The notes under the pieces were generated by a model. The model worked only from the letters and a program-made list of their open reading frames with translations. It made no database searches and had not been told where the DNA came from. DNA of 64,000 bases from Opitutales bacterium (GTDB taxonomy: Bacteria > Verrucomicrobiota > Verrucomicrobiia > Opitutales > Seribacteraceae). Location: contig JAOFTV010000004.1 of NCBI GenBank assembly GCA_028045305.1, positions 1-64,000 on the forward strand, written 5' to 3'. The translations under genes and the position numbers were made by a program. Below, in pieces: positions 50,858 to 61,705 of the stretch. Positions within the stretch are counted from its first letter, which is position 1. Every line of letters starts with the position of its first letter.

Positions 50858-52369
50858 ATGAAATTTATTGGAATCGACGTTGGTACATCATCGATCAAGG
50901 CTTTGTTGGTTGATTCATCCGGCAAAGTCCTTGCTAGCAGTAACCCGGAATATCCGTTTCAAACACCTGCTCCCTTGCAAGCGGAAACAGACCCGGAGGT
51001 TTGGTGGGATGCCACCTGTAAGGCATTAAATGAATTATTAAAGGATGTGGCACCCGAATCCATTGCCGGAGTTGGATTAACCGGACAAATGCACGGCTTG
51101 GTAATCCTTGATGCTCATGGGCAAGTTCTCCGTCCGTGTATAATGTGGAATGATCAACGTTCTTTTAAGGAGTGTGAAGAGATGACCGAACGACTAAGTG
51201 AAGCTGAAGTTTTGCGTCTTACTGGTAATCCAATCCTTGCTGGTTTTACCGCCCCCAAATTACGCTGGGTTGAAAAGAATGAGCCAGAAGTTTTTTCCAA
51301 AATTTCCAAAGTACTTTTACCTAAGGATTATATTCGCTATCGATTGAGTGGAGAATTTTTCTCCGAAATGTCGGACGCATCGGGCACATCCATGCTCAAT
51401 GTAGGAGAGAGAAAATGGTCGGACGAAATCCTCTCGGGTATGGGTTGGTCAAAAGATTGGTTGCCCGAACTTACAGAATCTACGATTGCATCGACCAAGA
51501 TTTCCCCGGATGCAAGTTCTCAAACTGGTTTATCCACTGGCACCCCAGTTATTGCGGGTGGAGGAGACCAGGCGGCTCAAGCTGTTGGATGCGGAATAGT
51601 TCAGGAAGGTATGGTTTCGGCAACTCTTGGTACAAGTGGGGTCGTTTTTGCTCAGAGCGATCAGTACCGTGTGGAACCAGAGGGAAAATTGCATGCATTT
51701 TGTCATGCCGTTCCCGGTAAATGGCATTTGATGGGAGTGATGTTGTCTGCGGCTGGTTCTTTCCAGTGGTATAAAAATAATTTGGGCAGAGAGGAACAAT
51801 CCATTGAGGATGGGGGAGGGGAGAATGCCTACGAACTCCTAACCCAATCTGCAGAACAGGTGGCCGCGGGGTGTGAAGGTTTGGTCTTCCTTCCTTATTT
51901 GTCTGGCGAGCGAACGCCCCACCCGGACCCCCATGCCCGGGGCGCTTTTGTCGGTTTGACTTTGCGGCACAGCAAAGCCCATCTTACACGGGCTGTATTG
52001 GAAGGAGTAAGCTACGGATTAAAAGATTCGCTCTCTTTAATGCAGGGACTTGGTATTCGGCCTGATAAAGTAATTTTGTCCGGTGGTGGGGCTAGGTCTT
52101 CCCTGTGGAAACAAATGTTGGCCGATATTTTTGAATCACCCTGTTCCTTGGTCAATGCACGGGAGGGAGCTGCCTATGGTGCCGCATTGCTGGCCTCGGT
52201 CGGATGCGATCACTTTTCTTCGGTTGAGGATGCCTCGGCTTCATGGATTGAAGAAACCGAGCGTGTGAAGATGAGTTCAAATTCTTCCAAGTATCATAAA
52301 AACTATAAAATCTATCAGAGCCTTTATCTCAGGCTCAAAGAATCTTTCAGGGAATTGTCTGCACAATGA
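50858..52369 (+). CDS. xylB: Xylulokinase
   Basis: A 503-residue FGGY-family sugar kinase that phosphorylates D-xylulose. FIGIDVGTSSIKALLVD binds ATP, GLTGQMHGLVILD is a strong XylB motif, GGGDQAAQAVGCGI and LGTSGVVFA follow, and SGGGARSSLWKQMLADIF is near the C-terminus. Upstream importer and SDR genes support a route in which a pentose or pentitol becomes xylulose and enters the pentose phosphate pathway. ATG at 50858 is the family start. The stop overlaps the next gene by 4 bp. Confidence 0.94.
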   Translation: MKFIGIDVGTSSIKALLVDSSGKVLASSNPEYPFQTPAPLQAETDPEVWWDATCKALNELLKDVAPESIAGVGLTGQMHGLVILDAHGQVLRPCIMWNDQRSFKECEEMTERLSEAEVLRLTGNPILAGFTAPKLRWVEKNEPEVFSKISKVLLPKDYIRYRLSGEFFSEMSDASGTSMLNVGERKWSDEILSGMGWSKDWLPELTESTIASTKISPDASSQTGLSTGTPVIAGGGDQAAQAVGCGIVQEGMVSATLGTSGVVFAQSDQYRVEPEGKLHAFCHAVPGKWHLMGVMLSAAGSFQWYKNNLGREEQSIEDGGGENAYELLTQSAEQVAAGCEGLVFLPYLSGERTPHPDPHARGAFVGLTLRHSKAHLTRAVLEGVSYGLKDSLSLMQGLGIRPDKVILSGGGARSSLWKQMLADIFESPCSLVNAREGAAYGAALLASVGCDHFSSVEDASASWIEETERVKMSSNSSKYHKNYKIYQSLYLRLKESFRELSAQ

Positions 52370-53121
52370 ATCTTGTTGGTAGTAAAAAACAGGGAGGTGA
52401 AATCTATGAAACCGCTCGGTCGCTTGGAGAGTATTTACTTTTTCATTATGGATCACAGGAGGAACAGTTTCCCTGGGCGGCCGGTCCCAAAGATGCCCTT
52501 GGTTTTGCCCGTCGAAGTGTGGAGGAATTGATCGATTCTTCCACATCCATTGGGCAAGTATTAGACCTTGGATGTGCGGTTGGGAAAAGTAGTTTTGTAT
52601 TGGCTAATATCTCCGGCCAAGTTTTGGGTATCGATTATTCAGAATCCTTTATTGGTGCTGCTAATAGCCTGTTACAATCAGGATCACTCAGTTATCAATA
52701 CCACGAAGAGGGGAGCAGGTGGAAAGATGCATCGGTAAAAATATCTGAGCTTCCATCCAACCTGTCTTTCGAAGTTGGGGATGCGTGCAATTTACGAAAA
52801 GACCTTGGGCAATTCGATGTCGTCCATGCGGCCAATCTACTTTGTCGTTTACCTGACCCTTTATCCTTGCTCGATCGACTTCCCGATCTTGTCAATCCAG
52901 GTGGCCAATTGATCCTTACCACTCCATTTACCTGGCTCGAGGAGTTCACTTCTCCTGAAAACTGGTTGGAGGAAGGAGATTCGGCATCCGCATTAAAGAA
53001 TATTCTTGAAGAACACTTTGTTTTAGAAATGGAAAAAAACTTACCTTTTCTGATTCGTGAACATCGTAGAAAGTTTCAATACAGCGTCGCACTTGGGATG
53101 AGATGGAAAAGAAGTGAATGA
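52366..53121 (+). CDS. Stand-alone OvoA-type methyltransferase (4-mercaptohistidine N-methyltransferase-like)
   Basis: A 251-residue SAM-dependent methyltransferase. The SAM motif is VLDLGCAVGKSSF (65-77), with GIDYSESFI next. YLLFHYG near residue 24, FDVVHAANLLCRLPDP, TTPFTWLEEFTSPENWL and FLIREHRRKFQ match, as I recall them, the C-terminal methyltransferase domain of the ovothiol enzyme OvoA. In OvoA it is fused to a sulfoxide synthase; here it stands alone and no sulfoxide synthase is in the window. It overlaps xylB and the next gene by 4 bp each, so it is translationally coupled to both. Function as an ovothiol methyltransferase is inference. Confidence 0.8.
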   Translation: MNLVGSKKQGGEIYETARSLGEYLLFHYGSQEEQFPWAAGPKDALGFARRSVEELIDSSTSIGQVLDLGCAVGKSSFVLANISGQVLGIDYSESFIGAANSLLQSGSLSYQYHEEGSRWKDASVKISELPSNLSFEVGDACNLRKDLGQFDVVHAANLLCRLPDPLSLLDRLPDLVNPGGQLILTTPFTWLEEFTSPENWLEEGDSASALKNILEEHFVLEMEKNLPFLIREHRRKFQYSVALGMRWKRSE

Positions 53122-53414
53122 TGAATATGACCGAATTTATTTCTTCCATTGAAAAAGGAAGTCAGCCCATAAATGAGTGGTCGATGGCCATTCAGGCTCT
53201 TTGGTGGGCAAAGAAAGGTAATTGGAAGAAAGCTCATGACTTGGCTCAGGATGCGGGAACAATTGAAGGAGACTGGGTTCATGCTTACCTGCATCGCGAG
53301 GAAGGCGATTTGCAAAATGCATCATACTGGTATGCCCGGGCAGGAAAAGCAGTCTGCCAAACAAACTTGTCAACTGAGTGGAAACAAATGGCGAATGAAC
53401 TAATCTGTCGATGA
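53118..53414 (+). CDS. Small TPR-like conserved protein
   Basis: A 98-residue helical protein. WKKAHDLAQDAGTIEGDWVHAYLHREEGDLQNASYWYARAGK resembles a widespread small family with one TPR-like hairpin, of unknown function. No signal peptide. It begins in the stop codon of the methyltransferase and its own stop overlaps the start of rodA by 4 bp, which makes a tightly coupled group of three genes with rodA. Confidence 0.75.
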   Translation: MMNMTEFISSIEKGSQPINEWSMAIQALWWAKKGNWKKAHDLAQDAGTIEGDWVHAYLHREEGDLQNASYWYARAGKAVCQTNLSTEWKQMANELICR

Positions 53415-54631
53415 ATAAAAGATTAAGCACATTTGGTGCAGGATCTCTAATCCCTGACGAATTTAAATGGGACTGGATTACCCCTCTTTGCTTACTTGTT
53501 CTTAGCGTGATGAGTGTTTTGTTTATTCGTTCCGCTCAAGCTTATGGGGGGGGGAGCTATTGGAAGATGCAAATGCTTTGGTGCATGATAGGGTTTTCAA
53601 TCTATGGAGTTGTTGCATGGATCGATTACCACTGGTGGATGAAGTACGCACATCTTTTATATTTTGCAGTCGTTTTTGGGTTATTGTTGGTTTTTGCCGG
53701 GCCAGTAATTTATGGAGCTAGGAGATGGATTGATTTGGGATTGTTTAAGATTCAGCCATCCGAAATTGCCAAATGGTCGACGATGGTACTTGGCGCAAGC
53801 ATCCTATCTCGGTCTCCAGTTGGAGACATGAGAGAATCGATCAAAGGGATTATGAAAGTCGGTGCTTGCTTTGGTCTGCCTATGTTCTTGATTTTTCTTC
53901 AACCTGACTTAGGTTCTACACTAGTTTTTCCTCCTATCGCATTTTCACTTTTGTACGTCGCTCGCATGCCAGCTAAATTTTTCCTTTCCACGTTTGTCGT
54001 ATTCGTGGTGATGCTTGGTGTGTTGGGCTTCGACATTTACCACTACTACTTATATAAACTAGAGAATCCACAAACCTCGGAAGCTGTGGTGGCTTACGAG
54101 GACAACTCGCTACTCCCTCTCAAGGATTATCAACGCAAGCGCATATTGACCTTTTTGGCTCCTGAAGTCGAAGACCCCCACGGAGTTGGAGCAAATTGGA
54201 ATCGAATTCAAGCCCTCATCGCTGTTGCCACAGGTGGTTTTACTGGCAAGGGTTTGGGAGAAGGCATGCAGGCCAAACTCGGGTACCTTCCCACTGCAGT
54301 CGCTCATAATGATTTCATATTTGCTGTAATTGCAGAAGAGTCCGGACTGATCGGCGGTTCACTGGCCGTTGGTGCTATTATGCTTATTGTATTTGGTTGC
54401 CTGCGCGTCGCTGCAAAAGCATCTGACCGCTTTGGAGCGATGCTTGCGGTTGGCGTATCCGTGCTATTGATGACCCACGTCTTCATAAATGTGGGTATGA
54501 CCTTAGGCATTACTCCGATTACTGGATTGCCCCTGCCGTTCCTTAGTTATGGCGGATCATTCCTGATCGTTTGTTTCTTGTTACTAGGGATGGTGCAAAG
54601 TGTGTATCGACACCGTAAAGACACCTTATGA
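53411..54631 (+). CDS. rodA: Rod shape-determining SEDS glycosyltransferase RodA
   Basis: A 406-residue SEDS-family peptidoglycan polymerase with about ten membrane helices. GARRWIDLGLFKIQPSEIAKW carries the conserved loop, FLQPDLGSTLVF has the Asp motif, and AVAHNDFIFAVIAEESG, with GLPLPFLSYGGS near the end, is the family signature. It makes glycan strands for lateral wall growth together with a class B PBP (not seen here). The start overlaps the upstream gene by 4 bp. A run of nine G residues lies at 53546-53554. Confidence 0.94.
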   Translation: MNKRLSTFGAGSLIPDEFKWDWITPLCLLVLSVMSVLFIRSAQAYGGGSYWKMQMLWCMIGFSIYGVVAWIDYHWWMKYAHLLYFAVVFGLLLVFAGPVIYGARRWIDLGLFKIQPSEIAKWSTMVLGASILSRSPVGDMRESIKGIMKVGACFGLPMFLIFLQPDLGSTLVFPPIAFSLLYVARMPAKFFLSTFVVFVVMLGVLGFDIYHYYLYKLENPQTSEAVVAYEDNSLLPLKDYQRKRILTFLAPEVEDPHGVGANWNRIQALIAVATGGFTGKGLGEGMQAKLGYLPTAVAHNDFIFAVIAEESGLIGGSLAVGAIMLIVFGCLRVAAKASDRFGAMLAVGVSVLLMTHVFINVGMTLGITPITGLPLPFLSYGGSFLIVCFLLLGMVQSVYRHRKDTL

Positions 54632-56486: not shown

Positions 56487-58232
56487 ATGCGCATTCTTGC
56501 CGCATTTGACAAATTTAAAGATTCCTTTTCTGCAGAAAAGGCTTGCGAAATCGTTGGGCAAGCTTCTTTGGAAATCGATTTTCAAAGTGAAGTTACGCCA
56601 TGTCCGCTTACCGATGGAGGTGAGGGATTTGTCTCGATACTAGGATCGTGTGTAAAAGGAGACTTTATAGATCGTATTGCACGCGACTCCCTTGGTGTAG
56701 GTAAGCAAGTTTCCTTTTCGATTGTCAACATTTCCGAGCTTTCAAAAGATGTCCGAAATTCGCTCGAACTTCCAGAAACTGGCAAATTAGCAATTTTAGA
56801 AATGGCATCTGTGTGTGGATTACAGGACCTTGACTTGGCTCAAAGAGATCCGTGGAAAACCTCAACTATGGGGATTGGAGATTTACTTTTATCATCCAAG
56901 GATTGTGGTGCGGATTTTATCCTTCTGGGAATTGGCGGGAGTTCAACCAACGATATGGGTATTGGTGCACTAACATCTCTGGGGCTAAAAGTTACAGATA
57001 AGAAGGGGGGTGAGGTGTTACTACCTTCACCCGAATTCTGGAATGAAGTCAGTAAGATTGAGGTAACTAAAATGAAATCACTCCCACCTATTCTTATTGC
57101 TTGCGATGTAGATAATACTCTTCTTGGACCAGCAGGAGCTACTCATCAGTTTGGTCCTCAAAAAGGGTTAATTAATGATAGGGCAGAGGAATTGGAGGAA
57201 CAAATGGTTAAAATGACAGCTAGACTTTCCCATTGTTTCCCCAAAGCACCTCTTAAAACTAAAGATCCAGGATCTGGAGCAGCGGGTGGTATTGGATATG
57301 GGTTGTCACTTGCCTATGATGTGAAATTTGTTAGAGGGTTTGAACTGGTCTCAAAGTGGCTAAATATTGAGCAAGCCGTTACTCGATCAGATTTGGTTCT
57401 TTGTGGAGAAGGCAGGTTTGATCAAACTTCACTGGGTGGAAAAGGACCTTTCGAGATTCTTCGATTGGCACAAAAGCATAAAAAGCCAACGGTTTTAGTC
57501 TGCGGTTCTATTGAGACTGAAATAATTGAACAGCTAAAAAGTTCTTTTCCACTTTTGTCCTGTTCAGTTTTAGCTGACCCTAGTGTGAAACTTGAACAAA
57601 ATCTTCTCCAAGGTCCTGATACATTTCTCCGAGTCTGTAAAGACGAGATCAGATTTGCTAAAGAGAATCTCAAAGTGAATTTTTCTGATGAGAGAGATCT
57701 TAAATTTAAGAGGATTCGTAGATTAAAAAAACTTTTACGACCTTTGCCAAGAAGATCGAACATCCACAAATATCCTGTATTGAAATGGTTTGCTGATACT
57801 GCATATAGAAGATCTTATCTTTGGTCCTTCAAGGGCAAGGAGGTTCGTTCTGCTTTATTTTTTGGAATTTGGATATCTATGCTACCCATAGTTGGTATAC
57901 AAATGCTTGTAGTCTTTTTCTTTGCATTGTTAGTCCGGGCTAATTTACCTATTATTGTGGCATTGCAATGGATTTCTAATCCCCTAACCATGGGTCCAAT
58001 TTATTTTGCTGATTATAAAATTGGAATGACTTTGATCGAGTTGATGAATCTTGATTATCCAGGTAACAGATTATTAAGTTCAGATTACGATTGGGCTCAA
58101 TTTTCCTACAGAGAACTACTGCGGTTGTTAGATACTTTTCCTCCGATGCTTGTGGGGGGGTCAGTTTTGGGCATTTCCCTGGGAGTTATTGCAGTCTTCC
58201 TTTACAAACTTTTTAGTAAGATTTACAAATAA
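56487..58232 (+). CDS. Glycerate kinase fused to a DUF2062 membrane domain
   Basis: A 581-residue single-frame fusion. Residues about 1-390 are a GlxK/GckA-type glycerate 2-kinase: FDKFKDSFSA, PLTDGGEGFVSIL, GIGGSSTNDMGIG, DPGSGAAGGIGYG and GEGRFDQTS. After a basic linker, residues about 400-581 form a DUF2062 domain with GIWISMLPIVGIQ and WISNPLTMGPIY plus three or four membrane helices. I know of no function for this pairing. The kinase makes phosphoglycerate in glyoxylate/serine metabolism, while DUF2062 is an uncharacterised membrane domain often near envelope genes. NamZ starts 4 bp downstream. Confidence 0.88.
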   Translation: MRILAAFDKFKDSFSAEKACEIVGQASLEIDFQSEVTPCPLTDGGEGFVSILGSCVKGDFIDRIARDSLGVGKQVSFSIVNISELSKDVRNSLELPETGKLAILEMASVCGLQDLDLAQRDPWKTSTMGIGDLLLSSKDCGADFILLGIGGSSTNDMGIGALTSLGLKVTDKKGGEVLLPSPEFWNEVSKIEVTKMKSLPPILIACDVDNTLLGPAGATHQFGPQKGLINDRAEELEEQMVKMTARLSHCFPKAPLKTKDPGSGAAGGIGYGLSLAYDVKFVRGFELVSKWLNIEQAVTRSDLVLCGEGRFDQTSLGGKGPFEILRLAQKHKKPTVLVCGSIETEIIEQLKSSFPLLSCSVLADPSVKLEQNLLQGPDTFLRVCKDEIRFAKENLKVNFSDERDLKFKRIRRLKKLLRPLPRRSNIHKYPVLKWFADTAYRRSYLWSFKGKEVRSALFFGIWISMLPIVGIQMLVVFFFALLVRANLPIIVALQWISNPLTMGPIYFADYKIGMTLIELMNLDYPGNRLLSSDYDWAQFSYRELLRLLDTFPPMLVGGSVLGISLGVIAVFLYKLFSKIYK

Positions 58233-61612: not shown

Positions 61613-61705
61613 GGAGAGATGGCAGAGTGGTCGAATGCGCTGGTTTGCTAAACCGGTGAGGAACTAATCGTTCCTCCACGGGTTCGAATCCCGTTCTCTC
61701 CGCCA
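61613..61705 (+). tRNA. tRNA-Ser (anticodon GCT)
   Basis: Acceptor GGAGAGA pairs with TCTCTCC, the anticodon loop TTGCTAA on stem CTGGT/ACCGG gives GCT, a long variable arm (GAGGAAC..GTTCCTC) identifies a class II tRNA, and the T arm is CGGG-TTCGAAT-CCCG. The discriminator is G and CCA is encoded. Confidence 0.97.

Follow-up and report, generated by a model that had tools for sequence, protein, structure and literature searches.

The window, a 64,000-nucleotide stretch of DNA from an Opitutales bacterium, contains on its forward strand a run of four overlapping genes. The gene at the center of this analysis (52366–53121, +) is an exact, intact open reading frame with an ATG start and a TGA stop, and its TIGR04345 match, AF2 model and motifs identify the 251-residue product as a stand-alone, SAM-dependent methyltransferase of the OvoM/OvsM type (MT). 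It is preceded by the xylulokinase gene xylB (50858–52369, +; TIGR01312, 584.6 bits against a cut-off of 380) and followed by a gene for a small 98-residue protein (53118–53414, +) and by a rodA-type gene (53411–54631, +), an ORF that takes its name from an earlier note on this DNA and keeps the same position in nine family loci. The 4-bp overlaps of MT with xylB (52366–52369) and with the small gene (53118–53121), which the earlier note had described, are real ATGA junctions, and a third such junction links the small gene to rodA (53411–53414). The small protein is conserved in place at eight family loci and gave zero matches in Pfam and NCBIfam, so its former label "TPR-like" has no support in either database. 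Locus comparison showed that the order xylB–MT–small gene–rodA is kept only inside the window's own family, and we therefore dropped a functional role for the xylB and rodA neighbors.

The TIGR04345 (ovoA_Cterm) profile matches MT over its whole length (profile positions 1–241 of 242, E 8.8e-50), which confirms the assignment to the OvoA C-terminal methyltransferase family. The score, 169.5 bits, lies 0.5 below the curated cut-off of 170, which close relatives pass. The earlier note had allowed for a closer match to a different methyltransferase family, and none was found: the next-best family in the profile search is the generic UbiG, with 37 bits, and the next fold family after OvoM and OvsM is CARNMT1, with Z 21. 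Among congeners, the MT gene shows dN/dS values of 0.06–0.16, indicating that it is constrained by purifying selection.

The source genome (2.32 Mb in 72 contigs, 77% complete) contains one TIGR04345-type methyltransferase. A search of this 77% complete genome for an OvoA/EgtB-type sulfoxide synthase found none; the best TIGR04344 match reached 49.8 bits against a cut-off of 400 and lies in a formylglycine-type domain that is attached to c-type haem motifs. The synthase is also absent from near-complete relatives that carry MT.

Among the 273 genomes of the order that were sampled, TIGR04345 homologs occur in 122, with stand-alone copies of ~250 residues throughout the order, and an OvoA synthase scores above cut-off in just 15. 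MT shares its methyltransferase domain family with OvoA, a fused sulfoxide synthase/methyltransferase (PDB 8khq). Unlike OvoA, however, it has no synthase half, and it shows only ~25% identity to the fused domains of its own order compared with at least 40% to other stand-alone copies. In a tree of OvoA C-terminal domains, an analysis that the earlier note had suggested, the stand-alone and fused domains separate, MT falls in the stand-alone clade, and OvsM branches as the sister group to the stand-alone clade of Verrucomicrobiota (SH-aLRT 88). Judged by these identities, MT evidently represents an old, separate Verrucomicrobiota family. A decayed OvoA remnant is ruled out by the purifying selection on MT, its old separate clade and its coexistence with OvoA.

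The AF2 model of MT (pLDDT 93) matches the OvsM and OvoM structures with overall Z scores of 32–33.5 at 1.4–1.5 Å (OvsM 9bxj, Z 33.5; OvoM 9bxl, Z 33.0), and sequence identity to these solved structures is 37–42%. CARNMT1, the fold family that follows, is itself a histidine-imidazole methyltransferase acting on carnosine, whose histidine ring it N-methylates. By sequence, the closest solved relatives are OvsM (165 bits), OvoM (132 bits) and OvoA 8khq (121 bits). OvoM, the 5-thiohistidine N-methyltransferase of Sulfuricurvum (PDB 9bxl-9bxn), is, like MT, a stand-alone protein, with 37% identity, the same fold (230 residues at 1.4 Å) and identical motif residues; unlike OvoM, MT has H233 in place of T, is paired with a second protein, P, described below, and belongs to a Verrucomicrobiota clade that the tree places closer to OvsM. 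OvsM, the 5-selenohistidine N-methyltransferase of Marinimicrobium (PDB 9bxh, 9bxj, 9bxk), is the best match in both sequence (42% identity) and fold; the setting differs in that carriers of MT almost all lack selD. A stand-alone methyltransferase of the OvoM/OvsM kind is thus already known and not new in itself.

MT contains the motifs ANLLCRLPDP, PFTW and IREHRRKFQ, and in the alignment all residues common to OvoM, OvsM and OvoA 8khq are present in it. Retained are N157, L158 and R161; P187 and T189; T195 and W200; I230, R231, E232, R235, K236 and Q238; and W190, which is L in OvsM. Residue H233, at a position where the characterized enzymes carry T, is family-specific and lies beside the substrate motif. 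MT also has no GG loop after W200: at window positions 52966–52995, EEGDS replaces the usual GG in MT and in a near-identical relative, and the corresponding sequence at L095 is NGEES. The substrate loop may be altered in the window's genus.

The methyltransferase domain of OvoA itself bears on the substrate of MT. In ten phylum genomes that have OvoA and no stand-alone MT, the motif of the fused domain is intact (NLIDRL, PYTW, IRET.[RH]K.Q). This motif is broken in the 15 OvoA proteins whose lineages also carry a stand-alone MT (e.g. TNDW, RR..RT.D; least so in G054), and there the stand-alone MTs retain it. All degenerate OvoA domains group in one clade (support 99) and so represent one evolutionary history, not 15 events, which limits the argument from decay. 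The decayed fused domain together with the retained stand-alone motif favors 5-thiohistidine over another histidine-like metabolite. On the simplest reading of these motifs, methylation of 5-thiohistidine, which OvoA produces, passed to the stand-alone MT, and the stand-alone MT most likely N-methylates this compound. G060 (L341:3915-6726), a member of an MT lineage, has its OvoA split over two reading frames that overlap (540 and 424 residues), and no stand-alone MT was found in it; here the pathway may have been lost. In one OvoA lineage, MT is the first gene of a compact cluster that also encodes a polar amino-acid-type ABC importer comprising a solute-binding protein, a permease and an ATPase (L085:9620-12717, L086:7221-10323, L087:7267-10358), which possibly takes up histidine-like thiols.

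Protein P is an uncharacterized protein of ~385 residues. Of 40 MT loci, 14 have P on the MT strand and upstream of MT; in 12 of these P directly precedes MT, and the gaps range from −4 to 151 bp. The two genes lie apart in the window's family, and in the source genome P is encoded on another contig, outside the window (G000:C67:74358-75509). When 84,980 species genomes were scanned, at least 563 P relatives emerged, and the 80 that were fetched come from Verrucomicrobiota (Opitutia, Spartobacteria, Pedosphaera and Kiritimatiellae among them) and two Pirellulales. MT is nearby in 39 of these 80 loci, and the P genomes checked that have no adjacent MT all contain a TIGR04345 match elsewhere (20 of 20, one weak). 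One Pirellulales methyltransferase copy (L328) is OvoM-like and falls outside the stand-alone clade. NCBIfam yields no match for P, and any M29 match in Pfam stays below threshold; an alignment of 40 sequences has about 95 invariant columns. A second P relative of ~360 residues, 26–30% identical and with no NCBIfam match, occurs in other members of the phylum (L308:3353-4429, L309-L313). Next to P stands a UbiX-like gene in Pirellulales (L235:4183-4770, L241:7517-8101) and, in some members of the window's family, a MenA-like gene (L137:9606-10472), both named by eye, and a link to quinones through these genes is possible. We rejected a quinone methyltransferase as the main reading of MT, given the UbiG score of 37 bits and the restriction of these neighbors to single lineages.

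Comparison of the window with its nearest relative, G007, showed 90–95% identity at 3.5–56.5 kb and an abrupt drop to about 68% near position 56533, which marks either a recombination border or a chimeric assembly. Since identity to G007 falls past 56.5 kb and the contig that carries P is about 66% identical to that of G007, the source assembly may be mixed. However, both P and MT are present in G007, so that the nearest relative retains the pairing. A tRNA-Ser (GCT) at 61613–61705 is 98% identical to relatives amid otherwise diverged sequence.

Across the order sample (273 genomes), P and MT occur together in 96 genomes, MT only in 25, P only in six and neither in 146. Fourteen of the 25 MT-only genomes have OvoA; the 11 that lack it comprise four members of the window's genus, which are 90–94% complete, and seven others that are 63–91% complete. 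Within that genus, four of eight genomes thus carry MT in the absence of both P and OvoA. In a phylum sample of 387 genomes, tallied by hand with a P genome defined by a strong P (>540 bits), MT is present in 57 of 57 P genomes. MT without P occurs in seven genomes, all seven of which have OvoA, and fused OvoA alone is found in ten more; P and OvoA never occur together in this sample. These phylum counts do not represent independent observations, but the OvoA-bearing lineages are spread over three distinct parts of the MT tree, and a single clade was rejected (AU p 0.013).

The predicted model of P (pLDDT 93.9) is nearest to NicX, a 2,5-dihydroxypyridine 5,6-dioxygenase (PDB 7cn3, 7cup; Z 26.4, rmsd 3.6, 308 residues), with which it shares a fold at 13% identity. 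The M29 aminopeptidases AmpS, PepS and AmpT, to which P also shows weak PF02073 matches, follow with a lower Z of 18. The iron ligands of NicX are His265, Ser302, His318 and Asp320. NicX is a mononuclear non-haem Fe(II) ring-cleaving dioxygenase that acts on a nitrogen heterocycle (PMC7910607). In the 40 P sequences, E224, E286, H311, D318, H319, H337 and D339 are among the invariant residues, and E224, E286 and H311 align with metal-site positions of AmpS (aminopeptidase S) in a weak profile match (E 0.08). PF02073 matches 17 of the 40 P sequences, all below threshold (best E 8.4e-05; 18.4 bits for P of the source genome against a cut-off of 27), and no profile search of the PDB with P recovered NicX. 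The model points to a metal-dependent enzyme, either an oxygenase or a hydrolase.

We propose that MT and P form a two-gene module in which P replaces OvoA and MT makes ovothiol A, a proposal for which we judge the chances to be about even. In this module P, as a metal-dependent enzyme of the NicX/M29 fold, would stand in for OvoA and supply 5-thiohistidine, or a very close imidazole-thiol, without a sulfoxide synthase; our first guess for its chemistry is O2-dependent attachment of sulfur to the imidazole. MT would then methylate the pi nitrogen of the 5-thiohistidine imidazole with SAM to yield ovothiol A. The mutual exclusion of P and OvoA among MT genomes favors P as the OvoA replacement, and we infer, less firmly than for the substrate of MT, that P is most likely the source of 5-thiohistidine in place of OvoA. 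More tentatively, P may be a new metalloenzyme with the NicX fold that forms 5-thiohistidine independently of OvoA, and P and MT together a second, convergent ovothiol pathway across Verrucomicrobiota. Similar reasoning led to the metallopterin ergothioneine synthase, which was found through methyltransferases that had no known sulfurizing enzyme; ergothioneine sulfurization arose several times while one methyltransferase family was kept (PMC9516567). Counting against the module are the four genomes, out of eight in the window's genus, that have MT but neither P nor OvoA, the separation of P and MT in the window's family, and the acidic residues at M29-like positions of P, which also suit a hydrolase. 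The missing GG loop after W200 and H233 in place of T in MT also count against the proposal.

These acidic residues lead to a reading that we regard as unlikely, in which P is an M29-type metallohydrolase that releases 5-thiohistidine or ovothiol from a conjugate or peptide brought into the cell and MT finishes or repairs the product. Such salvage is consistent with the alignment of E224, E286 and H311 with aminopeptidase S metal-site positions, with the weak M29 matches in Pfam and with the polar amino-acid importer that follows MT in one OvoA lineage. However, the closest fold of P is that of NicX and not of the peptidases, no importer was seen linked to P, and the mutual exclusion of P and OvoA would need a separate reason. 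It is rather improbable that MT acts outside ovothiol metabolism, its substrate being a different histidine-like or imidazole metabolite, one that P produces or breaks down. Most MT carriers lack the synthase, and the family-specific H233 lies next to the substrate motif, as would suit such a substrate; yet MT retains all residues common to the 5-thio- and 5-selenohistidine enzymes and persists where the domain of OvoA has decayed. That P acts after MT, modifying or degrading the methylated product of 5-thiohistidine taken up from the surroundings, would agree with the fold that P has in common with NicX, a ring-cleaving dioxygenase (PMC7910607), but is improbable to a marked degree, as the exclusion of OvoA fits replacement better and the carriers include near-complete genomes of only 1.3–1.7 Mb.

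A selenium route, in which MT would be an OvsM that methylates 5-selenohistidine (ovoselenol), is very improbable: OvsM is the closest characterized protein and the tree sister of the MT clade, but there is no synthase homolog, and the distribution of the selenophosphate synthetase gene selD, found in just six of 75 carrier genomes, in none of the window's family and not in the 77% complete source genome, largely refutes it. The split OvoA proposed in the earlier note, with the synthase half elsewhere in the genome, we consider next to impossible, since, incomplete as the source genome is, its near-complete relatives with the same gene, and indeed most relatives, also lack a synthase, and MT belongs to an old separate family. 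The earlier reading was right about the family and the missing synthase, found no support on the split enzyme, and missed the partner gene outside the window.

To our knowledge, synthesis of the antioxidant ovothiol has been described only via OvoA-type sulfoxide synthases, and our literature search found no paper on ovothiol in Verrucomicrobiota. What is new here is the partner of MT: the pairing of the two proteins wherever OvoA is missing points to an undescribed route to ovothiol or a closely related compound. P belongs to no database family, has about 95 invariant columns and lends itself to direct testing; if the proposal is correct, it would be a new enzyme family for imidazole chemistry. 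A widespread module would then have kept the last enzyme of the pathway and swapped the first for an unannotated protein, and ovothiol-like thiols would be made in marine and soil Verrucomicrobiota in which annotation says this is impossible.
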